Shown here piece by piece: positions 1,995-23,430 of a DNA stretch of 34,488 nucleotides. Made by a program: the position numbers and the translations under genes. This stretch comes from Desulfocapsa sp. (lineage in GTDB: Bacteria > Desulfobacterota > Desulfobulbia > Desulfobulbales > Desulfocapsaceae). Each line of letters starts with the position of its first letter. The first letter of the stretch is position 1. The DNA lies in the NCBI GenBank assembly GCA_029934815.1, contig JAOZLM010000002.1, positions 1 through 34,488 of the forward strand, in the 5' to 3' direction. The notes beneath the pieces are model-generated. The model had not been told where the DNA came from. It was given only the letters and a program-made list of their open reading frames with translations, and did not search any database.

Positions 1995-3020
1995 GTGAAT
2001 ATGTCTGATCTGAAGGTACAATTGGTTCATCTCGACGGGCCATTTAAAGGGGAAATTCAGGACTTTTTTGAATCAGTTATTGCCATTGGAAGGCACCCTG
2101 ATTGCCAACTTGTTTTTCCTAAAGAATGTGGTGCAATCTCCCGTAAACACGCTGAAATCATACGTGAAGGGGATCGTTTTAGATTTGTTGATAAAAGTGC
2201 AAACGGCACCCTGATTAATGGCAAAGCTCAAAAAGATGTTTTTTTAAAAGATGGTGATGTCTTAATCATTGGAGGAGAAGGCGGGCCTAAGGTTAGTTTT
2301 TTGAGTTCACCTCTGGAACCTGGAGACAAGGAAGCTATGGCTGCTGTTGCTGTAGTGGAAAAAACAGTGCCGGTTCCGGAAGCACCTTCCGCAAAGGCAC
2401 TTCCTCTAAAAAAGGAATCGGCAAAAGAAATATCACCACCCAGATTTGTGCCAAAACCCTCGCCTGCCCCCCAACCGGAGTCACCCAAACCACAAGCTCC
2501 ATCACCAGAGCCCCTCCCTACAGTGGCTAAAACACTTATTATTCAGTATGGCGCAACGCTCACATCTTTTAAACAATTGCCAATTACCATAGGCAGTGGC
2601 GCTGATTGTGACTGTCCCTTGCAGCATCAGGAACTTGCTGCAGAGCATGCACAAATATTTTTTCGGGACGATCAATACTGGGTGAAAGACCTTACAGGAC
2701 GTGGCCTGGTGACCGTTAACCAGCAAGTCGTTCAGTCAGAGTCACCGTTACCTCCGGATAGTTGTCTGGCACTCACAGCCAAAGGGCCTGAGTTTCAGTT
2801 CCTTGGTGACGGCAGACTGGCGGAAATTGAACCAACAGAAGTGAAGCAGAAACAATCTTCAGTAAACAGGCAAAAGACGCAAGGCACAAGACGTTCTGAT
2901 GATAACAGCTCAAAAGGGAACGGTAACATGATCTGGCTTCTGATTGCTTTGCTGGGACTTGGTGGTGCTGTTGCCGCTTTGTATTATTTTCAGCCAACAC
3001 TTTTCACTGATTTACTTTGA
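1995..3020 (+). CDS. FHA-domain protein: intact N-terminal FHA, Pro-rich linker, second degenerate FHA-like domain, C-terminal TM anchor
   Basis: FHA1: IGRHPDCQLVF..AISRKHAEI..FRFVDKSANGTLINGK. FHA2-like: ITIGSGADCDCPL..LAAEHAQIFFRDDQYWVKDLTGRGLVTVN. TM: MIWLLIALLGLGGAVAALYYF near the C-terminus. The frame begins with GTG at 1995; ATG at 2001 is an alternative start. Confidence 0.85.
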   Translation: MNMSDLKVQLVHLDGPFKGEIQDFFESVIAIGRHPDCQLVFPKECGAISRKHAEIIREGDRFRFVDKSANGTLINGKAQKDVFLKDGDVLIIGGEGGPKVSFLSSPLEPGDKEAMAAVAVVEKTVPVPEAPSAKALPLKKESAKEISPPRFVPKPSPAPQPESPKPQAPSPEPLPTVAKTLIIQYGATLTSFKQLPITIGSGADCDCPLQHQELAAEHAQIFFRDDQYWVKDLTGRGLVTVNQQVVQSESPLPPDSCLALTAKGPEFQFLGDGRLAEIEPTEVKQKQSSVNRQKTQGTRRSDDNSSKGNGNMIWLLIALLGLGGAVAALYYFQPTLFTDLL

Positions 3021-3097: not shown

Positions 3098-4663
3098 ATG
3101 GAACAGATATCTATTCCGGATATTCCTTTTTCTATTCTCGCACTTGCACCTTTTACCTCAGAGCCTGATCCCGGTTCTGTAAATGACCCGCAGGCCGTTG
3201 ATCCCCTGGATATTGACCAGACTTTGGCTGCCATGGCTCCTTCTTTCTATCTTTCTCTGCCAGCCACTCAATGTCCTGCTGGTGGTTTTCAAATTCAGTT
3301 TCGGCAAATGAAGGATTTTACTCCCGATGGTTTGCTGAAGAGTCAGGCTTATTTAAAGCAACTGCTGGCTGCAGATCGTTTCTGTGTGGAGGCAGGGCAG
3401 CAGAAAATGTCTCCACAGGATGTGCAGCAAGGGTTGAAACAATGGCCTGATTTGCCTCATATCTCGCTGGATTTTGAGGAAAAAGTCAAAAAAGAAGAGA
3501 GTAATTCTCTCGATAATCTTCTGTCCATGGTAGATTTACCAGATAGCCAGTCGTCGATCCACACTGCTGTATCTGCCGGTACCGGGTCGTACGGTGCGCT
3601 GGCTTGCCAAATTCTCGACGCTATTTATAGTGATCCACTATTTCGCAGTCTTGAATCCAGCTGGCAGAGTTTGCGCTATCTTGGCCGCTATATGAGTAAA
3701 GCAGGAGCGAAGCTGACGATATTATCAGTGTCACCGGATAGTATTGAAACAGTTTTGGAAGAAAACCGGGAGCTGTTACTCACCCATCCCCCTTCTTTAC
3801 TTTTGCTCGATCAATCGTTTGGCAGCTCTGCACAATCTGTCCGGATACTAGAGCAACTTGCTCAGCTTGGACAGGAGATGCTTGTACCTGTGCTGGCCTG
3901 GGTGGATAATTCGTTTTTTCAAATAGAGAGCTGGCGTGAGTTGGATAAACTTTCGTTCCTGCCCCATTATATGGAAGGAGCTTCTTTTGCAAGTCTCAGG
4001 AGCTTTCAGGAATCTGCATCAGGGCGCTGGTTGGCTCTTGCCTGTAACCGTTTTCTAATACGTTTTCCGTATGGACCGGAAAACCGTTCACGCTTGCTAC
4101 CATTCAGTGAAAAGGGTGTGCCCTGGCAATCACCGGTATGGGGTGTCGCGGCTCTTATGGCAAGTCGTGCGCAACAAACTGGCTGGCCGACAAGGATTGC
4201 CTCATCAACTGAGCTTCTCGAAGATCTGGCTCTCACAACAGAAGGATTGAGTGAGACGGGAAGTGTAGAAATTGAATTAGGTGAGAGTCGGCTGGACCAG
4301 TTGACTCGTTGCGGTATAATGGCGCTGACAGGTCGAAAAAGAACAGATACTGCTTTGCTTGCAGGTGATGTTATGGTTTCAGCCGACGCCAGTTTAAGTT
4401 ACCAGATGCTGGTTTGCCGGGTCAGTCATTTTATTCTCTGGTGTCGGGATCACTGGCAGGAAGCTTTTACTGCAGAGGAATTGGCTGTGCAGCTCCGTAC
4501 CGCTTTTCGGCTTTTTGCGGAAAAGCAGAGCGGAACTTCAGCCGGAGACCTGGATGTAACGTGTAAGCATGATCAGGACGCAATCATGGTATCGTTTTGC
4601 TGGCAGCCTTCTTCACAAGTTCTTTCAAGCAGGCAGGAGGTTATGCTGGAATTTGCCTGGTAA
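3098..4663 (+). CDS. TssB-TssC-like single-chain fusion paralog (divergent T6SS sheath protein)
   Basis: N-terminal part aligns by eye with canonical TssB of this window (PFSILALAPFT ~ PLKMLIMGDFT; IQFRQMKDFTPDGLLKSQAYLKQLL ~ LAFESLKDFNPDAIAENSPELKKLM). The rest aligns with canonical TssC (SLESSWQSLRYL ~ KLESAWRSTKYL; RFLIRFPYG ~ RFLLRLPYG; PVWGVAALMASR ~ YLWGNAAFAFAT). Confidence 0.75.
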   Translation: MEQISIPDIPFSILALAPFTSEPDPGSVNDPQAVDPLDIDQTLAAMAPSFYLSLPATQCPAGGFQIQFRQMKDFTPDGLLKSQAYLKQLLAADRFCVEAGQQKMSPQDVQQGLKQWPDLPHISLDFEEKVKKEESNSLDNLLSMVDLPDSQSSIHTAVSAGTGSYGALACQILDAIYSDPLFRSLESSWQSLRYLGRYMSKAGAKLTILSVSPDSIETVLEENRELLLTHPPSLLLLDQSFGSSAQSVRILEQLAQLGQEMLVPVLAWVDNSFFQIESWRELDKLSFLPHYMEGASFASLRSFQESASGRWLALACNRFLIRFPYGPENRSRLLPFSEKGVPWQSPVWGVAALMASRAQQTGWPTRIASSTELLEDLALTTEGLSETGSVEIELGESRLDQLTRCGIMALTGRKRTDTALLAGDVMVSADASLSYQMLVCRVSHFILWCRDHWQEAFTAEELAVQLRTAFRLFAEKQSGTSAGDLDVTCKHDQDAIMVSFCWQPSSQVLSSRQEVMLEFAW

Positions 4664-5431
4664 TTATGCGGCGCTTTTTTGTAATTCCGCTTTCAGCAGA
4701 TCCGGCATATTCTCAACGGCGTCCTGAGCAACAATTTCCTGGAATGCCGGAATACCTGAGAGCTGTGTTACTTCAGTGATAAACTTATCTGGCGGCAGGA
4801 AGGTTGTAAGCGGCGCAGTAATCATGATTGCCGGCAAATTCCCCAGATCCGGTATCTCATAAATATCCACCTGATAACGAAGGTCTTCAAGCAGACTTTT
4901 TAGAGCCGGGAAATATTCCAGAAGTAATACCAGGCTGAGGTGGCAGATAAGCGCCTGGCGCATATCATCCGTCTGTTTAGCTTCCTTGCCGCTCAGCATA
5001 CCCTGTAAGCGCTCAAGGGGACATTCACTCTGGTAGGAAATAAGAAAACGGGTGGGAGAAGTGATAGTGATGCTTTTGCCATTATCACCATCAAGAGCCA
5101 GCTCATATTGCAGTGGAGTGTATTCCAGAACATTGGACATGGCCGGTAAGGGGGCCTGAAGTCTTTTGGGCAGTTGGAACGGTGATTCACAAATAGCGCT
5201 GAATCGTTCCTGCAACTCAGCAAATGCTTTGTCTGAACCGTTTATCTCTTGCTGCGAAGAACTTTTAATATACGTGCCAAGGAGTTTTCGGGGAATAAAG
5301 AGCGGCCGCAGGGTTGTGAGATGTTCCCGTAAGCGCTGCCCCAGAAATGAGCTGATCTTGTCTGTGGCCTGGCGGAGTTCCAGAAATTCCTGGCTGTCCA
5401 GGTCGGTACGGGGGATATTCAGTTCATTCAT
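4664..5431 (-). CDS. Hypothetical T6SS-linked protein, 255 aa
   Basis: Full-length ORF in the same strand block as the T6SS genes. No family recognised. Stop codon directly abuts the stop codon of the convergent TssBC-like gene. Confidence 0.7.
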   Translation of the reverse strand: MNELNIPRTDLDSQEFLELRQATDKISSFLGQRLREHLTTLRPLFIPRKLLGTYIKSSSQQEINGSDKAFAELQERFSAICESPFQLPKRLQAPLPAMSNVLEYTPLQYELALDGDNGKSITITSPTRFLISYQSECPLERLQGMLSGKEAKQTDDMRQALICHLSLVLLLEYFPALKSLLEDLRYQVDIYEIPDLGNLPAIMITAPLTTFLPPDKFITEVTQLSGIPAFQEIVAQDAVENMPDLLKAELQKSAA

Positions 5432-5464
5432 TGTGTTTTCCTTTATTGTTGTGCCTGCTTGAGG

Positions 5465-6244
5465 CTACCGTAATGATATGATAAATGCCTCAGTTTCCTC
5501 TTCAGAAGAGTAGGGGCAGAACATGATTTTTTCTGGTGTTCCTTCAACTTTCAGGTAGTAGGAGCTCCCTGGAGGAAGTTCATTTTGTACTGCCCAGGCA
5601 GTAAATTTGCTCTCACCCACTTCAATTTCCAAACCCTGCTGCGGATAGTTGAGGATAGATTTTTCCGGTAACTGCCCTGAAGGTCCCACTGCATGCAGTT
5701 TGATTTCTCCGTCACTAACCGCAAAGATTGCACCCTGCCAGTCACTGTTTGCAGGCCCTATCTCAAACCATTGGCCAACATTGGTAATCCCGTACACATC
5801 AATTCGATATTCAGTCTGGCTGGGTTGCACAGGTGTGTGGACAGTAGCAAGCAGTTTCGCTCCGTAAGCATCTCCGGCAATCGGCAGCACTTTCGCTTTA
5901 CTAAGCGGTGTGGGAAGAGAATCCGGCGCTATCTCTTCATCTCCAATCTGGAGAATAACAATGGGGAAGTTTGCACCACGCTCAGCCTGAACTGCAAGGG
6001 CGAGCATAGCAAGCCCATAACGGAAGGAGTCTTTTTTAAGACTTTCAGCAGAACAGAGAAGCAGCCACATGGAGACATTAGTATCCAGTAATTCCTTTCG
6101 CGGTGCTGCCCAAGCCATTTTTTCAAGATCGTCTGTGAAAAAATGACCATCAGCGGCAAGGCCGTAGGTTTGTAGTTTTGCGATAACAGATTGCACTGTT
6201 TCTTCGGGACAGTCGAACGCACTGATCCATATTTTTTTCTGCAT
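5465..6244 (-). CDS. Hypothetical T6SS-linked protein (about 259 aa from the internal ATG)
   Basis: The ORF track starts at 6295, but the MQKKIWISAFD start at 6244 is preceded by an AAGGA-like RBS (AAGGACACCATG) and avoids the overlap with the upstream gene. N-terminal alpha/beta-like half, C-terminal beta-rich half. Confidence 0.7.
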   Translation of the reverse strand: MQKKIWISAFDCPEETVQSVIAKLQTYGLAADGHFFTDDLEKMAWAAPRKELLDTNVSMWLLLCSAESLKKDSFRYGLAMLALAVQAERGANFPIVILQIGDEEIAPDSLPTPLSKAKVLPIAGDAYGAKLLATVHTPVQPSQTEYRIDVYGITNVGQWFEIGPANSDWQGAIFAVSDGEIKLHAVGPSGQLPEKSILNYPQQGLEIEVGESKFTAWAVQNELPPGSSYYLKVEGTPEKIMFCPYSSEEETEAFIISLR

Positions 6245-6251
6245 GGTGTCC

Positions 6252-7721
6252 TTATCTTCCCGCCAGATGGAGCGGGTTGTCAAAATTAAAACCAAAGAGA
6301 CGGGGATTCTCCCCGATCACTGCTGCTGAAAAGATGTAAAAGACATAATCATAGGTTTGCTCTGGAATTTTGTCTCGATATTGTTTGAAAAATTTCCAAA
6401 AATTACGTTCCTGCGGATTGTTGGGCATGGCTCTCACCATACGGATAATCCGGTTTTCTCCCCAGTTATACGAAGCCATGACTAACAGACCGGAGGCCTG
6501 TGCATCGGTATCATAAATTTTACGAAGATATTTTGCCGCAGCCACCGTTGATTTTGCAAAGTTATGCCGCTCGTCTTGCGGATCAACTGTTCGTTCTTTA
6601 TACAGAGGGCCTGTTCGCAGTCCATAACGACTCCCGGTTTCAGGAATAAACTGCCACATACCTTTGGCTATTCCCCAGCGGGTTTTGGGGCCCATTGCAT
6701 TGACTTTGAAATTACTTTCCTGTAAAGCCAGATAAAAAAACTGGGGCGGCAAATAGTAGAAACGCATGGTATCTGCAATGGTAGGCGTATAGCCCATATC
6801 GTCGGCCCGTTTTACGGCATTTACAAGGCGTTTGGTGGATTGCCATTTTTTAATGTAACGAAGGACTTCTTTGGTGAAATCATCCGGGACAAGCAGCTCG
6901 CATTCGCCAAAAATCCTGGCAGTTTTGAGGATAGCCTGCTCTTCAGGACTGATACTACTGTATATCCCAAGGGTATCGACAAATTCACTGTAACTGTTCT
7001 CCAGCGCCCGAGCCTTTTGTTTATATTGTTCGACTCGGGCAATGGTGCTTGTGTCTTCACTTTCCCGTCCTTTCTTCAGCACATCAGCAAACTCAACTTC
7101 CAGACTTTTCATTGTATAGAAAATTTCTTCAGCGAGTTTTTTCTGCTTTACAATCTGCTGATGGTTATAAACAGCCACAGAACCAGCTACTAGAAAAAGA
7201 CAGACAACAAAACCAATTATAGCACCATAGGTTCTTTTTTGTTTTTTTTGTACCTGAGCAAAGGCACGTCGTACCATTATGGTGTGTTCACCTGCATTTT
7301 CATCGTTCTGATCACTGAAGTAATGTTGCTGGTAGTGAGCTTCTGTCTGTGGATCTTTTTTTGTTTCTGGAGCTTTCGCAACCGGCGGGTCAATAATTAG
7401 ATTGAGTTGTGGTCCGTTTCTTCCCAGTGTAACTTTGACTTGTTCTTTGATTTCATATCGACCAATAGCTTGTTCATTTACAAAAAGACCATTACCACTG
7501 TTGCAGTCCTGGATCCACCAGGTTCCCGCAAGCAGAACGACTTCAGCATGCTTGCGACTGACCACCGGATCAGCAATGTGGATGTCATTGGTGGGATCTC
7601 TGCCAATACGGAAGGAAGATGTGAACTTTTGCTCTGCAACCTGACCGGCTGTCCAGGTTGCAGAAACACGAATAGCAGGAGGAGAAGCATTCTGCTGATT
7701 GTTTTCCTGATCTGTATTCAT
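6252..7721 (-). CDS. FHA domain - transmembrane helix - MltD/SLT-type lytic transglycosylase fusion
   Basis: FHA: FRIGRDPTNDIHIADPVVSRKHAEVVLLAGTWWIQDCNSGNGLFVN. TM: AIIGFVVCLFLVAGSVAVY. SLT motifs: YLALQESNFKVNAMG, GIAKGMWQFIPETGSRYGLRTG, VASYNWGENRIIRMV (written MASYNWGENRIIRMV in the translation). Confidence 0.9.
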   Translation of the reverse strand: MNTDQENNQQNASPPAIRVSATWTAGQVAEQKFTSSFRIGRDPTNDIHIADPVVSRKHAEVVLLAGTWWIQDCNSGNGLFVNEQAIGRYEIKEQVKVTLGRNGPQLNLIIDPPVAKAPETKKDPQTEAHYQQHYFSDQNDENAGEHTIMVRRAFAQVQKKQKRTYGAIIGFVVCLFLVAGSVAVYNHQQIVKQKKLAEEIFYTMKSLEVEFADVLKKGRESEDTSTIARVEQYKQKARALENSYSEFVDTLGIYSSISPEEQAILKTARIFGECELLVPDDFTKEVLRYIKKWQSTKRLVNAVKRADDMGYTPTIADTMRFYYLPPQFFYLALQESNFKVNAMGPKTRWGIAKGMWQFIPETGSRYGLRTGPLYKERTVDPQDERHNFAKSTVAAAKYLRKIYDTDAQASGLLVMASYNWGENRIIRMVRAMPNNPQERNFWKFFKQYRDKIPEQTYDYVFYIFSAAVIGENPRLFGFNFDNPLHLAGR

Positions 7722-7728
7722 AGTTTGA

Positions 7729-8136
7729 TTATGGTGCCAACAACAACACCTTGGTCTGGCTCGGGATTATCCTCATCCCGGGGACATTCGTACCGTTTTG
7801 CAAGCTCGGACTTGTAAGCCTTGTAGCAGGTTTTCCCTGGAAAAGAACAGTAAAAGCACCTGCCAGGTGCCGGGATGGTCCCATAACTCGTCCAGATGCG
7901 ACTCCCAGAGATATTCCAGCATTATCGCCATTGGTTAATGGCGTTACTGTCCCCATATTGTGAGCCGGCATTCCCATTATAAGGATTTTCATGCATGCCG
8001 TTCCCGGGTTTGCCGTGGGGCCCATTGCTATATTTGGGTATGGAATAGGGACCGGTGCGGGTGCTGGTGGCGCTGGAGTCAGGCAAACATCTGGAAAAGC
8101 AAGATCCTGACCCATCATTTGAGTATTTGCAAACAT
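7729..8136 (-). CDS. PAAR-like (DUF4150) spike-tip protein without toxin extension
   Basis: 135 aa. PAAR-like: FPDVCLTPAPPAPAPVPIPYPNIAMGPTANPGT..ILIMGMPAHNMGTVTPLTNGDNAG..GRVMGPSRHLAGAFTVLFQGKPATRLTSPSLQNGTN. Confidence 0.85.
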   Translation of the reverse strand: MFANTQMMGQDLAFPDVCLTPAPPAPAPVPIPYPNIAMGPTANPGTACMKILIMGMPAHNMGTVTPLTNGDNAGISLGVASGRVMGPSRHLAGAFTVLFQGKPATRLTSPSLQNGTNVPGMRIIPSQTKVLLLAP

Positions 8137-8148
8137 TTGATGCCTCCT

Positions 8149-8799
8149 TTATCCCATATGGATTCGTTCACCGTTAATCTTCACATCTTCTTCCGCTGTG
8201 AGCATGGAATATTTCCCACGAATTGTCAGAAGAGTGTCGGCGGAATAATCCAGTCGATTTGCCTTTAATTGATCGGTTCCTTCTACTTCCCGATAAGAAC
8301 GCTTAACCTTCTGTTTGAAACGATCAAAAAGAGATTCAAAAGTACCTCCCAGTACTTTTGTTTTTGCTATTTCACTCAGTAAATGAGTCGCAATAACTTT
8401 CAATCTGCTGATATTTATTTTTCCATGATCAGCAACAAACTGCATTTCTGAAGCTGTAAGATCGAGTTTTCGGGCAGTCATGATTCCTACGCCTGTTTTA
8501 GCGATGATTTGGATTTTACCATCTTTGCAGAGGAAATCTGTATCACCTTCAAATATCACTTTGTTTTTCTTTCCATTTTTTTCAAGAACGGCAAGAATGT
8601 AGCATTCTCCTTCCGGATCAGTAATGAGAAGTACTTTATCCGTTATATCCGGGTATTGGAGACAGCTTGCCGCTTTTTTTGCAGTGTATCGTGTCTCTTG
8701 GGTCCTGACGATAAATTGCCCCTGATTAACATGTTCAATATATCCAAATTCTTGAAAAACAGGGTGTCCCTGGTCTTTATTAGCTAGTGCATTTAACAT
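8149..8799 (-). CDS. DUF3540-like T6SS accessory protein
   Basis: 216 aa protein between pentapeptide and DUF4150 genes, with the VLLITDPEGECYILAVLEK ... LDLTASEMQFVAD... pattern and beta-rich repeat-like C-terminus. Context (DUF2169/PPR/DUF3540/DUF4150) supports the call. Confidence 0.7.
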   Translation of the reverse strand: MLNALANKDQGHPVFQEFGYIEHVNQGQFIVRTQETRYTAKKAASCLQYPDITDKVLLITDPEGECYILAVLEKNGKKNKVIFEGDTDFLCKDGKIQIIAKTGVGIMTARKLDLTASEMQFVADHGKINISRLKVIATHLLSEIAKTKVLGGTFESLFDRFKQKVKRSYREVEGTDQLKANRLDYSADTLLTIRGKYSMLTAEEDVKINGERIHMG

Positions 8800-12554: not shown

Positions 12555-14765
12555 TTAGATAAAAAGGTGAACCAGTGATTTCTTGACGGCTGGCCCTGAA
12601 GACTCTTGTATATCAGATAAACCGGTTTTTATACATGCAGATTCTTTTACAAGTTTAAGTCCGGCACTGTAACCAATATCTATGGAGAAGCTTGCAAAGT
12701 ATTTAAGACCTGCAGAAATCTCAATGCCTGCCGATGCACTTGCTTCATAGTTTAAGCCGGCATGAGCTGTCATGGAAGTACTTAAGTATCGTGCCATGGT
12801 ATGTCCAACATAAGAGGCTATGCAAACTCCGTCACTATGCCCTGTATGATTGCCCGAGACACTTATAGTTCTGTTTCCAATGACATTATATGTTTCACCG
12901 CCGGTCACATTATGTGTTCTTCCACCAGCGGTGACAATATATTGGTCGCCTCCGGAAATGATCTGTGTTTTTCGGGAGTTTGTTATGTAGTTTTGCTGGC
13001 CATTAGCAACGTACCTGTTTTCCTGGTCTCCGACTCGTACTTCCCGATATTGCATTGCATTTGTTCTTTCCTCACCTATGACATCTAACTTTCTGTTTCC
13101 TGTCACGTATTTCCATTCTTTCCCTTTTATTTTTATCGTTTTATCTTCGCCCACGTCTTCAAATGAACCTTTTTTGCAGACGGTAACTTGTGTACCGTCT
13201 GTAGCTAAATAAACATTACCGGCATTCACGTCACCTAAGGAAATAATAGAATTCTCTGTGGGAGAGGACATGTGGATCTGCTGCCCACCTGCACTATCTT
13301 CTATACGAATCTGATTACCACCGGCAGTACGAATCATTGATTGAGTCTGATTGCCGCCGGTAACTGGGCTGCCGGTTTCGGGATTTGGAACGGTTCCTGA
13401 AATAATAGGGCGATCGGGGTCACCATCGATAAAGGTGAGCAGCACTTCAGTTCCTTTGTGCAGAGGAAAATGCATACCGTAATCAGCACCTGCGTATGGC
13501 TGGGACATTCGCATCCAGCGAGAGGCCTTGCCGTCTGCAGAATCACTTTGATCAAATGGTAGTTTTACTTTATAGCGTCCTTCGTCATCAATTTCTGCAT
13601 ACTCACCGTCCCCACTCGCATCGACTGTGCCGTTAAGTGTTCCTTTGAGTTTAGGCTTTTCCGCTAAACGTTCAGGCCTGAATTGGGTATCAGCCGGTAT
13701 GCAACTGAAATTGTTAAAGTATGATGGCCCCTGACTGTCGTCGGTACTCTCGCCGCCAGCTCCGGTAAGATATGTGGATTGCACCCCTTTATGGGATAGC
13801 TCAATGATTAAATAGCGCTGATTATAGGAGTCCCGATAATGATCGTGTAACTCAAAAACATAGCCAGTCAAAAATGGTGGTACGGTTCCTTCTCCGTAGA
13901 AGAGTGCTTCCCGGCAGAGCAGTTCTTCCGCTCGTATTGTAGCCAAGGCATTTCCCTGTTCCGGGGTTTTGAAATGTTCCCCGTAGATATACACGTTACC
14001 CCGGCCTTCGGGATCTACATCTGCCTCTCCCTTCAGAGATAGGGAAGGTTTTCGGTAGTTATAATCTTTTAAAACAATTTTCTTCGGTAAGAGCTGCTGG
14101 TGGCAGGTGAATTCCCTGACCTGCTCTGTGGTTGATGGTGCGAGAGAGTCTGGCGGGGAATAACGAATAGATTCGCCCGAGGTGATATCCTGGTGGGCTG
14201 TGGAGGCATCGGCAATAACCAGTTTTTCTGCTTCACTACCTTGTTCGAAATAGTAGTAGATTCCCTCCCGTTCCATCCAGCGGGAAATAAAGTTAAAATC
14301 AGATTCATTGTACTGGCAGATATATTCCCAGGGATCGTAACTGCCGGTGAGTTTCATCTCGTAATCATTGGTGGTAAGACCGGTTTGTTTAAGGACTTCT
14401 TCGATAATATCCGGGATGCTTTTATCAAGGAATAACTGATTTTCCAGATATTGATCTGCGATCCACAGGCGGGGAACCAGTATGGCACGAAAGTATACGT
14501 GTCCAGAATACTCGTGCAATTGTTCAAAGCGGGAGAGGATGCCATGAAAAACTCGCAGTTGTTCCCCCTCTTTTTCAACGGTTAATTTTACCGGGTTTTT
14601 TAAAACTTCTTTGAGATCGATATCCGGATCATCAGCATAGAGTGTTATCTCGAATTCATAGAGTTTAGAAATAGCTTCTTTACCTGTGAACTCGGCAACC
14701 GTAAAGGTATCATCTGGTTGCGCTGTTGAAGTAAAACTGAATTTAATACTTTCTTCAGTAGGCAT
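12555..14765 (-). CDS. vgrG: VgrG spike protein (TssI)
   Basis: VgrG hallmarks: VFHGILSRFEQL, YICQYNESDFNFISRWMEREGIYYYFEQ, VKLPFDQSDSADGKASRWMRMSQPYAGADYGMHFPLHKGTEVLLTFIDGDPDRPIISGTVPNPE. Start overlaps the clpV stop (TAATG). Confidence 0.97.
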   Translation of the reverse strand: MPTEESIKFSFTSTAQPDDTFTVAEFTGKEAISKLYEFEITLYADDPDIDLKEVLKNPVKLTVEKEGEQLRVFHGILSRFEQLHEYSGHVYFRAILVPRLWIADQYLENQLFLDKSIPDIIEEVLKQTGLTTNDYEMKLTGSYDPWEYICQYNESDFNFISRWMEREGIYYYFEQGSEAEKLVIADASTAHQDITSGESIRYSPPDSLAPSTTEQVREFTCHQQLLPKKIVLKDYNYRKPSLSLKGEADVDPEGRGNVYIYGEHFKTPEQGNALATIRAEELLCREALFYGEGTVPPFLTGYVFELHDHYRDSYNQRYLIIELSHKGVQSTYLTGAGGESTDDSQGPSYFNNFSCIPADTQFRPERLAEKPKLKGTLNGTVDASGDGEYAEIDDEGRYKVKLPFDQSDSADGKASRWMRMSQPYAGADYGMHFPLHKGTEVLLTFIDGDPDRPIISGTVPNPETGSPVTGGNQTQSMIRTAGGNQIRIEDSAGGQQIHMSSPTENSIISLGDVNAGNVYLATDGTQVTVCKKGSFEDVGEDKTIKIKGKEWKYVTGNRKLDVIGEERTNAMQYREVRVGDQENRYVANGQQNYITNSRKTQIISGGDQYIVTAGGRTHNVTGGETYNVIGNRTISVSGNHTGHSDGVCIASYVGHTMARYLSTSMTAHAGLNYEASASAGIEISAGLKYFASFSIDIGYSAGLKLVKESACIKTGLSDIQESSGPAVKKSLVHLFI

Positions 14766-17413
14766 TAGTCATTTCCTCCGAATTTTATGGCGAAGTTCCC
14801 CTCCTGATCCATATCAAGGTGAACACTTTCAGGCATTTTTTCTTCACTCATGCAGGTCAGGATTTCTTTGGACATTTGCGGTAGTACAGTACCATTCATA
14901 ATATGATCGATATTTCTGGCACCGGTTTCAACTTCTGTACATCTGGCTGCAATTTGTGTAATGACTTCATCACTGTAGGTGAGTTTCATTTTATGTGTCT
15001 GCTGCATTCGTTTTACCAGCTTATCCATCTTTAATATGACAATATCACTTAAGATATCCTGTGGAAGCGTCATATATGGGACAACGGTCATCCGGGCAAG
15101 AAGTGCGGGTTTGAAGTGGTTGTTCAAAATAGGACGTACGGCCTCCATGATTACTTCCGGAGGCAGTGGTTCATCACCGGTTGTCATTTCAGTTATCACA
15201 TCGGTGGCAAGGTTGGAAGTAAGGAAAATGATGGTATTTTTAAAATCAATTTCCCGGCCTTCGCCGTCCGACAGAGAGCCTTTGTCGAATACCTGGTAGA
15301 AGAGATTCAGCACTTCGAGATTGGCTTTTTCTACTTCATCAAGCAGGACTATGGAGTAGGGGCGTTGACGTACCGCTTCGGTAAGTACACCGCCTTCTCC
15401 ATAGCCAACGTATCCCGGAGGTGACCCAACCAGACGACTCAAGGTGTGACGTTCCTGGAATTCACTCATATTAATGGAAGTGACAAATCGTTCGCCACCA
15501 AGAATTAAATCAGCAAGGGCAAGGGCAGTTTCTGTTTTACCAACACCACTTGGGCCAACGAGCAGGAAGATGCCAAGTGGTTGTGCAGGATCTTTCAGGC
15601 CTGATTTAGCAGCTTTTATAACTTCTGCAATGGCAGAAAGACCATTGTCCTGACCTTTAATCCGCTTTTGCATCGATTCTTCAAGGTTAACAATATTTGA
15701 AGCCTGATCCCGCATAACACTGCCAAGAGGTACGCCTGTCCAGTCAGAAACTACTTTGGAGACGATATCCGGGTCAACTTCTATGCGTACAAGGGCTTCA
15801 TCTTTTTGCAATTCCTCAAATTCGCCTTTCAGCTGGCTGAGTTCTTTTTCCATTTCTGGAATCTTCTCTTTTGCCTCACTGTCTTCCTCATCCGCTTCTT
15901 TGGCTGCAAAGAGTTCTTTTCTTACTTTGATAAGTTTGTTGGCCAGTTCCTGCTCACTTTTCCACTGCGTTATCAGGGCTTCCAGTTGTTCTGCGAGATC
16001 CGTGAGTTCCTGCTCAATTTCAGTTAAACGTTCTTCATCAACCTCAAAACCATGGAGCTTGTCTCGTCCCATGGCTCGTTTTTCCCGCTCAAGTGCCTGA
16101 ACTGTTCGTTCCCGGTCTTCGATAACATCCGGTTTTGCAGTGAGAAGTACCTTGACTCTGGCGGTGCTGGTATCGAGCAGATCAACAGCTTTATCGGGCA
16201 ATTGTCTTCCCGAGATGTAACGGCTTGAAAGCTCTGCCGCTGCGACAACTGCGTCATCCCGAACAATCACACCATGGGCTTCTTCATATTTTTGTTTCAG
16301 CCCGCGCAGGATGAGAATGGCAGTTTCGGTGGAGGGCTCATCAAGTTTGACCAGTTGAAATCTTCTGGCAAGTGCAGGATCTTTTTCGAAATATTTTTTG
16401 TATTCAGACCAGGTGGTGGCGGCAACAGTTCGTAGTTCGCCTCTTGCAAGGGCAGGTTTCAGGAGGTTTGCGGCATCACTCTGTCCTGCTGCTCCCCCTG
16501 CGCCAATGAGGGTATGGGCTTCATCAATAAAGAGAATAATTGGTTTAGGTGATGCTTTTATTTCGTTAATAACTGATTTTAGGCGGTTTTCGAATTCACC
16601 TTTTACCCCTGCTCCTGCCTGCAACAGTCCCATATCCAGACCGAGAATTGAAACATTCTGCAATAGTTCCGGTACATCTCCTTCTGTAATCCGTAAGGCC
16701 AGTCCTTCCACCACGGCGGTTTTACCAACTCCGGCTTCACCAACAACAATGGGATTGTTTTTTCGTCTTCTTGCCAGAATATCAACCATCTGCCGGATTT
16801 CAAGATCCCTGCCAAAGACCGGGTCAATTTCTCCTTCAGCTGCTTTTTCGGTGAAATCAACACAGAATTTTCCAAGAGCAGTTGAGTCTCTGGGGCCTGC
16901 AATTTCTTGATCATCATCAGCTTCACCGGGAGCAGGTTGCTCGGAAGAGGATTGAACGATTCCCCAGAATTCACTCTTCAGTCCATCAAAAGGGATTACG
17001 TCCAGCTGCTCAAGAAATTGTCCTGCTCCAAAGCGGGATGGATTATTAATCAGTGCTAGCAGGAGTGCTCCTGAGCGGAGTTTGGTTTCATCAAGATCAA
17101 CAGATGCAAGTAGCCAGGCTTCCTGGAACCATTCCATTAATAGTGGTGAAAAAACAGGCTTAGCAGCATTGCCCGTGCTGAATTCCTCAAGGGCGGCATC
17201 TATTCCTTTGCTGAATTTTCCGGGATCTAAATCATAATGACGTAAAATGACGGGCAGATCCGAACGATCTTCTTCAAGAAGTTTAGCAAGGAAATGTTCT
17301 AAGGTAACTTCATAATGGGTGCGTGAAACACAGAGGCCGGCTGCAGCTTCAAGGCAGCGGGTACAGAAAGGATTTAAGCGTCCTAAAAGCGATTTGATGT
17401 CAACAGTTAGCAT
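14765..17413 (-). CDS. clpV: T6SS AAA+ ATPase ClpV (TssH)
   Basis: Two Walker A motifs (VVGEAGVGKTAVVEGLA; LVGPSGVGKTETALALA), Walker B IILFIDEAHTLIG and IVLLDEVEKA, ClpB-like middle domain, N-terminal Clp-N. Confidence 0.97.
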   Translation of the reverse strand: MLTVDIKSLLGRLNPFCTRCLEAAAGLCVSRTHYEVTLEHFLAKLLEEDRSDLPVILRHYDLDPGKFSKGIDAALEEFSTGNAAKPVFSPLLMEWFQEAWLLASVDLDETKLRSGALLLALINNPSRFGAGQFLEQLDVIPFDGLKSEFWGIVQSSSEQPAPGEADDDQEIAGPRDSTALGKFCVDFTEKAAEGEIDPVFGRDLEIRQMVDILARRRKNNPIVVGEAGVGKTAVVEGLALRITEGDVPELLQNVSILGLDMGLLQAGAGVKGEFENRLKSVINEIKASPKPIILFIDEAHTLIGAGGAAGQSDAANLLKPALARGELRTVAATTWSEYKKYFEKDPALARRFQLVKLDEPSTETAILILRGLKQKYEEAHGVIVRDDAVVAAAELSSRYISGRQLPDKAVDLLDTSTARVKVLLTAKPDVIEDRERTVQALEREKRAMGRDKLHGFEVDEERLTEIEQELTDLAEQLEALITQWKSEQELANKLIKVRKELFAAKEADEEDSEAKEKIPEMEKELSQLKGEFEELQKDEALVRIEVDPDIVSKVVSDWTGVPLGSVMRDQASNIVNLEESMQKRIKGQDNGLSAIAEVIKAAKSGLKDPAQPLGIFLLVGPSGVGKTETALALADLILGGERFVTSINMSEFQERHTLSRLVGSPPGYVGYGEGGVLTEAVRQRPYSIVLLDEVEKANLEVLNLFYQVFDKGSLSDGEGREIDFKNTIIFLTSNLATDVITEMTTGDEPLPPEVIMEAVRPILNNHFKPALLARMTVVPYMTLPQDILSDIVILKMDKLVKRMQQTHKMKLTYSDEVITQIAARCTEVETGARNIDHIMNGTVLPQMSKEILTCMSEEKMPESVHLDMDQEGNFAIKFGGND

Positions 17414-21444: not shown

Positions 21445-22932
21445 TTATGTTTTATCCAGTTTTCCTACCAGAGAGAGGGTGAAAGAAGCGCCCATATATT
21501 TAAAATGAGGCCTTACTTTCAGACCAACTTTATACCAGCCCGGTTCACCTTCAACTGAATCTACGGTTACTTCAGCCATTCTAAGTGGTCTGCGACTTCT
21601 GGCACTGGCTGAAGGGTTATCCATTTCTGTTACATATTGACCAATCCACTTATTCAGCTCAAGTTCCAGATCACTTTTCTCTTTCCAGGAACCTATATTC
21701 TCTCTTTGTAATACTTTGAGGTAGTGGGCTAAGCGATTGATTACAAACATGTACGGTAATTGCAGGCCAAGTTTGTAATTGAGCTCAGCTTCTTTACCTT
21801 CTTTGGAAATGCCAAAGGTTTTAGCTTTTTGAACAGAATTTGCAGAGAAAAATGCTGCATTATCGCTGTTTTTCCGCATGGTGAGACCGATAAAACCTTC
21901 CTCGGCCAGTTCAAACTCTTTTCGTTCTGAAACCAGTACTTCGGTGGGGATTTTTGTCTGGGTTGCACCCATGGAATCGTACTGATGCAATTTCAGATCT
22001 TCAACTGCGCCACCACCCTGAGGGCCTATGATATTTGCACACCAGCGGTATTTTGCAAAACTCTCTGTGAGTCTGGTAGCAAAGGCAAAGGCTGCATTAC
22101 CCCAGAGATATTTGTTATGACTACCCGCAACATTCTCTTCGTAATCAAAAGTTTTAATGGGGTCACTCTCAGCTCCATACGGTAAACGCAGGAGAAAGCG
22201 AGGCATGGTAAGACCTATATAACGTGCGTCTTCTGATTCACGGAACGCCTGCCACTTTAAATATTTAGGGCCTTCAAAGATCGATTTGAGATCTTTCAGA
22301 TTTGGCAGTTCGTTAAAATCCTCAATATCAAAAAACTGTGGGCCGGCTGCTGCAATAAAAGGCGCATGAGCCATCGCTGCAACACTTGCAATACTTTGCA
22401 GCAGCTTAATATCCTGAGGGCCCGGGCCAAAATCATAATTACCAATCATGGCCGCATAGGGCTGGCCACCAAACTGGCCAAATTCTGCTGTGTAGGCCGT
22501 TTTGTAGAGGCCTGATTTGGGGATCTCCGGTGAATCTTCAAAATCATCAAGCAGATCTTCTTTGCTGATATTCACCATCTCAAGTTTGATGTTCTCACGA
22601 AAATCTGTGTTATCAATCAGGTATTTCGTGGAACGCCAGGCAGATTCGAGTTTTTGAAAATCTTCATGATGCATAATAGCATCCACCTGCAGACCGACCT
22701 TCTTGTCAATCTCAGCAATCATTTCATCAACCACAGCTTTGGTGACTTTATCAACACCTTTGCCTGGTTCTATCAACTGGGCAATTAGGGCTTCAACCCC
22801 TTTTTTAGCCATGCCATACGCTTCATCGGCTGGCTTTAATTTGGTCGCCTGGGTAATTTCTTCGAGCAGGGATATGGATTCTTCCAGAACCTCTTCCTTG
22901 CCTTGAGCAACTTGTTCCTGTTCTTCGGCCAT
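21445..22932 (-). CDS. tssC: T6SS sheath large subunit TssC (VipB)
   Basis: LESAWRSTKYLIDNTDFRENIKLEMVNISKEDLLDDFE; QPYAAMIGNYDFGPGPQDIKLLQSIASVAAMAHAPFIAAAGPQFF; C-terminal VKVRPHFKYMGASFTLSLVGKLDK (LKVRPHFKYMG in the translation). Confidence 0.98.
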   Translation of the reverse strand: MAEEQEQVAQGKEEVLEESISLLEEITQATKLKPADEAYGMAKKGVEALIAQLIEPGKGVDKVTKAVVDEMIAEIDKKVGLQVDAIMHHEDFQKLESAWRSTKYLIDNTDFRENIKLEMVNISKEDLLDDFEDSPEIPKSGLYKTAYTAEFGQFGGQPYAAMIGNYDFGPGPQDIKLLQSIASVAAMAHAPFIAAAGPQFFDIEDFNELPNLKDLKSIFEGPKYLKWQAFRESEDARYIGLTMPRFLLRLPYGAESDPIKTFDYEENVAGSHNKYLWGNAAFAFATRLTESFAKYRWCANIIGPQGGGAVEDLKLHQYDSMGATQTKIPTEVLVSERKEFELAEEGFIGLTMRKNSDNAAFFSANSVQKAKTFGISKEGKEAELNYKLGLQLPYMFVINRLAHYLKVLQRENIGSWKEKSDLELELNKWIGQYVTEMDNPSASARSRRPLRMAEVTVDSVEGEPGWYKVGLKVRPHFKYMGASFTLSLVGKLDKT

Positions 22933-22941
22933 GGTTCTCTC

Positions 22942-23430
22942 CTATTTATCCTCGACGCCGAGTTCTTTCAGCAGTTGATCTTTTGATTCGTCATCTTTAA
23001 CAAGAGTTTGGATTTTCTTGCGAAACTCCGGAACATTTGAAAGAGGTCCTTTCAAAGCTGTTAAGGCCTGGCGGAGTTCCATAAGTTTTTTCAGTTCCGG
23101 GCTGTTCTCTGCTATTGCGTCAGGGTTGAAATCTTTCAGAGATTCAAAGGCAAGTTTAACAGCCATCTCTTCGTCAGGATTGTCTGAAAGTTTGTTGGGA
23201 ACGGTCATGTTCAGATTGAGATTCTGCTCTTTCATCACATCGTTGAAGTTGTCTTTGTCGACATTAATTGGCTCTCTGTCTTCAACCGCTCTGTCGTCTT
23301 CTCTTTGGGTGAAATCACCCATGATGAGCATTTTTAACGGAAGTTCTACCTCTTCCTGGGCATCCCCGGTTGCAGGACGATAGACAATATTGACTCGTTC
23401 CTTTGGAGCTACCGAACCTTCCTTTGCCAT
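22942..23430 (-). CDS. tssB: T6SS sheath small subunit TssB (VipA)
   Basis: PKERVNIVYRPATGDAQEEVELPLKMLIMGDFTQREDDRAVEDREPINVDKDNFNDVMKEQNLNL is a clear TssB signature. Confidence 0.98.
   Translation of the reverse strand: MAKEGSVAPKERVNIVYRPATGDAQEEVELPLKMLIMGDFTQREDDRAVEDREPINVDKDNFNDVMKEQNLNLNMTVPNKLSDNPDEEMAVKLAFESLKDFNPDAIAENSPELKKLMELRQALTALKGPLSNVPEFRKKIQTLVKDDESKDQLLKELGVEDK

Follow-up and report, generated by a model that had tools for sequence, protein, structure and literature searches.

Why does a locus that encodes a complete type VI secretion system (T6SS) carry, besides separate tssB and tssC genes, a further sheath gene in which both subunits appear to be joined in a single chain? 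This gene, FUS1, lies in the window (the whole stretch of DNA analysed, 34,488 nucleotides) together with genes for TssA–TssC, Hcp, TssE–TssG, ClpV, VgrG, TssJ–TssM and a PAAR-like protein. The separate tssB and tssC genes that the initial annotation placed beside FUS1 are borne out by their Pfam scores, and the window holds no second tube or baseplate set.

3098–4663, + strand: FUS1, single-chain TssB–TssC paralog, 521 residues (ATG start, Pfam, hhalign, AlphaFold model)
3116–3394, + strand: TssB-like half of FUS1, residues 7–99, from the first core strand and without N-arm (hhalign)
3569–4381, + strand: TssC-like core of FUS1, residues 158–428, VipB domain (Pfam VipB, hhalign)
4382–4660, + strand: TssC-like handshake (gpW/gp25-like) domain of FUS1 and C-terminal strand with conserved Trp (hhalign, model)
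14765–17413, − strand: ClpV (TssH) (Pfam AAA_2, ClpB_D2-small, weak Clp_N)
21445–22932, − strand: canonical TssC (Pfam, 446 bits)
22942–23430, − strand: canonical TssB (Pfam, 194 bits)

FUS1 is a single-chain paralog of TssB and TssC

The FUS1 reading frame (3098–4663) contains no internal stop codon. Pfam VipB (PF05943) matches residues 170–423 (E 3.5e-31, 108.8 bits against a cut-off of 27) and T6SS_VipA (PF05591) matches residues 8–92 with 24.0 bits, equal to its gathering score of 24; FUS1 relatives clear the VipA model with 36.8 and 41.0 bits. The initial annotation had proposed a single-chain TssB–TssC paralog, to be abandoned if no TssB or TssC match spanned the two halves. Both halves match, since the FUS1 family profile aligns by hhalign with canonical TssB (probability 97.8, E 8.6e-13, window residues 7–99) and with canonical TssC (E 7.5e-32). 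FUS1 falls below the NCBIfam equivalog cut-offs for TssC (TIGR03355, 86.3 bits against 271.5) and for TssB (TIGR03358, 17.6 bits against 97.25), and judged by its TIGR03355 score it is a TssC homolog but not a canonical TssC.

An AlphaFold model, built on the window and related-locus sequences, has a mean pLDDT of 74.5 and a pTM of 0.72, with pLDDT of about 91–96 across residues 31–100. Its top PDB matches are T6SS sheath structures (VipB of 3j9g, E 3.4e-14, probability 1.00), with phage tail proteins ranking next, and this structure prediction, a check proposed by the initial annotation, supports the single-chain assignment alongside the profile comparison. FUS1 shares with the TssB/TssC (VipA/VipB) protomer the core fold of both subunits, the handshake domain and the conserved W/E/RFL.R.PYG positions. 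It differs from the protomer in being a single chain without the TssB N-arm, in the shrunken TssB C-terminal and TssC N-terminal regions, in an invariant C-terminal Trp and in forming a deep clade of its own. The TssB–TssC fusion is solid; the role of FUS1 is less so.

FUS1 is a conserved and monophyletic family

Our searches for FUS1 covered Desulfobacterota genomes, with relatives that are full-length or cut by contig ends, and one pattern scan beyond this phylum. Among 43 sampled Desulfobacterota genomes with a sheath match at E ≤ 1e-20, 19 encode FUS1 (one of them, G380, counted from a contig-end fragment alone), and the search of further loci suggested by the initial annotation thus places the fusion in 10 families. 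Most FUS1 genomes also have a separate TssC match, and three have none among the matches listed; the genome of the window carries FUS1 once, plus canonical TssC.

When the TssC core was analysed by maximum likelihood, the 24 FUS1 rows included clustered together (100/100), separate from TssC as well as from FUS2, a second single-chain type described below. The initial annotation had also considered a decayed pseudogene, and we found open FUS1 frames in more than 20 genomes and dN/dS values of 0.09–0.40 among FUS1 relatives. The family is under purifying selection, monophyletic and conserved, and is an ancient gene family, apparently without prior description: the literature searched, in which subscription papers and preprints are sparsely covered, describes no natural single-chain TssB–TssC protein. 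FUS1 relates to the known TssB/TssC kind, and both FUS1 and FUS2 apparently lack a description in that literature.

A phage origin was rejected, as matches in the phage collection are confined to the TssC part, and no viral contig relatives of FUS1 were found. The same collection holds a TssC-like gene (CAKLQH020000001.1, 108153–109136) in a 328-kb Acinetobacter phage record; this is probably not a phage gene. A search for plasmid carriage gave no place with 80% query coverage.

FUS1 neighbours suggest a possible link to threonine phosphorylation

The genes around FUS1 in the window are as follows.

100–1035, − strand: trypsin-like protease, same module as FHA2x–FUS1 (domain search, gene context)
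1032–1796, − strand: PP2C phosphatase, divergent from FHA2x–FUS1 (domain search, conserved position)
1995–3020, + strand: FHA2x, with two FHA domains and a transmembrane helix at its C-terminus, immediately upstream of FUS1 (Pfam FHA, transmembrane prediction)
4664–5431, − strand: U255, convergent with FUS1 in some family members (gene context)
5465–6244, − strand: N276, about 260 residues, TIR/Rossmann-like N-terminal domain, co-occurring with FUS1 (predicted fold)

FHA2x immediately precedes FUS1 in 20/20 class-A loci and the divergent PP2C gene is present in 18 of these 20, many of which further carry a trypsin-like protein, a PEGA-domain kinase, a TPR protein and a CsgG/LpoB-like protein. 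The FHA2x C-terminus forms a transmembrane helix in 4/20 loci and a basic amphipathic stretch in about 13/20. At six loci (L079–L083 and L085), the FUS1–FHA2x module has no T6SS core gene inside about 10 kb. Class-B loci (L091–L097) place FUS1 within T6SS clusters, without FHA2x and mostly adjoining N276, ClpV or VgrG. With its kinase, PP2C phosphatase and FHA genes, the module resembles in gene content the PpkA–PppA–Fha threonine phosphorylation pathway of T6SSs; unlike that pathway, it also encodes a sheath paralog, a protease of the trypsin-like kind and a protein with two FHA domains.

N276 occurs in 18 of the 19 FUS1 genomes versus 4 of the 24 other genomes with a sheath match (Fisher p 2.3e-7, uncorrected for kinship). 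T6SS clusters with N276 and without FUS1 (L128–L131) rule it out as a FUS1-exclusive protein. The predicted fold weakly suggests a TIR/Rossmann-like N-terminal domain, the C-terminal half of the model being unreliable, and the gene often adjoins ClpV. U255 has no Pfam or NCBIfam match. A further protein of the window (6252–7721), kept in several FUS1 loci, combines an FHA domain, a transmembrane helix and an SLT lytic transglycosylase domain.

Compared with its counterpart in the relative G012, the window's FUS1 is 61% identical, close to FHA2x (60%), PP2C (64%) and TssA (61%), whereas canonical TssB and TssC are 91% and 94% identical. The evolution of FUS1 is therefore unlike that of a bulk lattice protein.

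FUS1 lacks the TssB N-arm and keeps the handshake domain

Every complete class-A FUS1 lacks the TssB N-arm and starts, as a rule, 6–9 residues ahead of the first TssB core strand. A start-site artefact is excluded, because only 11 in-frame codons precede the window ATG, so that a TssB N-arm cannot be encoded there. The upstream frame is short in nearly all FUS1 relatives too, and the few listed starts that are longer add sequence that is not common among them. The missing N-terminal stretch of TssB reported by the initial annotation is thus real. Its reduced TssC N-terminal region holds for the segment that joins the TssB half to the TssC core, but the handshake domain at the C-terminus is kept; its more general loss of interlacing elements applies to the TssB N-arm, but not to the handshake acceptor domain or the C-terminal strand.

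The FUS1 C-terminal part aligns with the TssC handshake domain by hhalign (E 3e-5, score 32.4; no shuffle scored above 18.3), and the Pfam VipB_2 model has no match on FUS1. The AlphaFold model places C-terminal strands at residues 485–492, 495–502 and 515–520, and a Trp occupies the position of the window's last residue in 24/24 FUS1 rows compared.

In V. cholerae, the sheath fails to assemble when VipB carries the K223A substitution (PMC5797969). The equivalent residue is basic in 23/24 FUS1 sequences (20 Lys, 3 Arg), the sole exception being the window copy, with Ser299.

3992–3994, + strand: codon of S299, equivalent of VipB K223 in the window FUS1 (alignment)

Lys is found at this position in just 7 of the 13 canonical TssC sequences compared here. 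The equivalent of VipB D333 (PMC5797969) is acidic in 16/24 FUS1 sequences, and these two positions suggest that sheath-lattice contacts seem to be kept in most FUS1 members.

A conserved linker motif may contact ClpV

The linker between the two halves is disordered or of low confidence in the model, save for a short helix at residues 138–143, which falls within the best-conserved linker feature.

3509–3541, + strand: FUS1 linker motif LDNLLSMVDLP, residues 138–148 (conservation; low-confidence linker in model)

Family-wide, the motif reads [LVI]D.[IL]L.MV, with conservation of 1.00 at L142, 0.96 at V145, 0.92 at M144 and P148 and 0.83 at D139. Known ClpV-binding motifs of TssC are LLDEIM and ILDSII (PMC4239648). 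The FUS1 motif aligns weakly with the N-terminal (ClpV-binding) helix of TssC (hhalign score 16.6; the best of 60 column shuffles reached 13.0), and it did not stand out in a position-specific single-sequence scan that used canonical TssC ClpV-helix peptides. The linker motif may bind ClpV.

FUS1 as a candidate end piece of the sheath

FUS1 probably serves the sheath as a specialised end piece or as a regulator. We favour, with a probability of roughly 0.4, a reading in which FUS1 is a low-copy sheath-end subunit, probably on the baseplate or membrane side, under the control of an FHA phospho-module. The TssB N-arm and the TssC C-arm of a protomer reach toward the ring nearer the baseplate, and the arms of the first ring have been proposed to dock on TssE (PMC5813253). 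FUS1 would accept the arms coming from the first canonical ring and need no N-arm site beneath it, at the baseplate/membrane end of the sheath, where it would link TssE to the first TssBC ring as an adaptor or initiator. As arms dock baseplate-ward, and FUS1 has lost the N-arm and kept the acceptor, this geometry favours the baseplate end over a distal cap. Membrane-tethered FHA2x would hold FUS1 and then release or recruit it according to the Thr-phosphorylation state that the nearby kinase and PP2C establish, and the start of sheath growth or firing would thereby become conditional on a phospho-signal. Tethering of FHA2x would also place FUS1 near the membrane, a weak argument since the distal end may touch the membrane too. 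Through the linker motif, FUS1 would contact a general T6SS partner, which may be ClpV.

This reading is supported by fold and homology, by the family-wide lack of the N-arm, by the membrane tether of FHA2x, by the invariable FHA2x adjacency in class-A loci, with PP2C in 18 and a kinase often nearby, by the basic residue at the K223 position in 23/24 members, by the location of class-B genes within T6SS clusters and the co-occurrence of N276, and by fast evolution, unlike that of bulk sheath. It is weakened by the presence of TssE, the known sheath initiator, by the retention of the C-terminal strand, which leaves room for a distal position as rings of the VipA-N3 mutant are joined by the VipB C-arm alone (PMC5813253), and by the Ser of the window copy at the K223 position. 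The FHA linkage may moreover reflect regulation alone, and class-B loci untie FUS1 from any one gene context. TssE would share this end of the sheath with FUS1; homology of the FUS1 C-terminal domain to TssE was ruled out, as it has no gp25-like sequence match (E 0.16). The initial annotation had named a terminator, a baseplate-proximal ring, a cap or a length regulator. These are four distinct roles, of which the baseplate-side one fits better and none is established, one arm only being lost. Its view that FUS1 is not a bulk protomer gains support from the missing N-arm and from evolution far faster than that of the sheath.

The FHA, phosphatase and kinase linkage, which the initial annotation did not mention, raises a serious rival, the main one, that we consider somewhat unlikely: FUS1 may be purely regulatory. 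As a soluble, non-assembling mimic of the sheath, or decoy, which FHA2x holds, it would bind a sheath, TssA or ClpV site and block or license sheath assembly or recycling according to phosphorylation. The persistence of the FHA2x–PP2C–kinase linkage at loci with no T6SS core gene nearby is consistent with such a regulator, as are the evolutionary rate shared with FHA2x, PP2C and TssA and the weak likeness of the linker motif to the ClpV-binding helix. The absence of an adjacent FHA2x in class B, the conservation of the assembly-relevant K223 position in most members and the negative single-sequence ClpV scan argue against it.

That FUS1 instead terminates sheath growth as a distal cap, docked via its C-terminal strand only, is quite improbable. 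Its armless N-terminus and retained C-terminal strand would suit this position, given that a VipB arm joins VipA-N3 sheath rings (PMC5813253) and that fast-evolving distal proteins of the TssA type exist, but its handshake acceptor would let more rings add, and a cap is expected to lack the acceptor, as FUS2 does. That FUS1 is built into the sheath as a bulk protomer, or forms the sheath of another contractile machine, is very improbable: the chain carries a near-complete protomer fold, but it has no N-arm, evolves much faster than TssB/TssC and is encoded once beside single canonical tssB and tssC genes, in a window with no second tube or baseplate set. A decayed pseudogene or annotation artefact, for which only the relative G596 with its copy broken by stop codons (L100, 6894–8016) could speak, is refuted by the open frames, dN/dS values and monophyly reported above.

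To our knowledge, the sheath end proteins known so far (TssE, TssA and TagA) are not full protomer-like chains. FUS1, a one-armed protomer-like subunit tied genetically to a phospho-switch, offers a handle on sheath ends, and its linkage a route to ask how threonine phosphorylation could reach the sheath.

FUS2 and other divergent sheath paralogs

FUS2, the second single-chain TssB–TssC type, was found at loci L110–L116, L021, L122 and L123, including the following.

L110, 1501–3021: FUS2 (G524)
L021, C-terminal part of 5439–8432: FUS2 (Burkholderiales)
L122, 13459–16650: FUS2 (Rhodobacterales)
L123, 11980–13758: FUS2 (Burkholderiales)

Like FUS1, it is encoded beside a canonical T6SS and unites TssB and TssC in a single protein; unlike FUS1, it keeps an N-terminal stretch ahead of the TssB core and ends short of the handshake domain. 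Its clade is separate from FUS1 (100/99) in the TssC-core tree, and within the Desulfobacterota sample both types occur only in G380, an assembly with 8% contamination. We regard it as decidedly unlikely that single-chain end pieces arose twice independently with complementary losses, FUS1 as an FHA-gated baseplate-side adaptor and FUS2 as a distal cap.

Agrobacterium TssC40/ImpD, a second, divergent TssC homolog that is non-redundant with the TssB/TssC beside it (PMC3702570), provides a precedent for a specialised sheath paralog such as FUS1; unlike FUS1, it is described as a TssC homolog only and not as a fusion. A clade of its own (100/100) and a TssB half rule out FUS1 as a second TssC of this type. 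An alphaproteobacterial paralog (L020, 11271–12953) has a full TssC part and no recognisable TssB half and branches among TssC; a gene at L107 (2664) likewise encodes a divergent second TssC in which no TssB half was recognised.

Annotated FUS2 copies are labelled just 'contractile sheath large subunit', a label that can mask distinct single-chain proteins. Several FUS2 proteins carry an LLDEI-like motif between their halves, and those of L122 and L123 contain repeated acidic LDDLL-type motifs.
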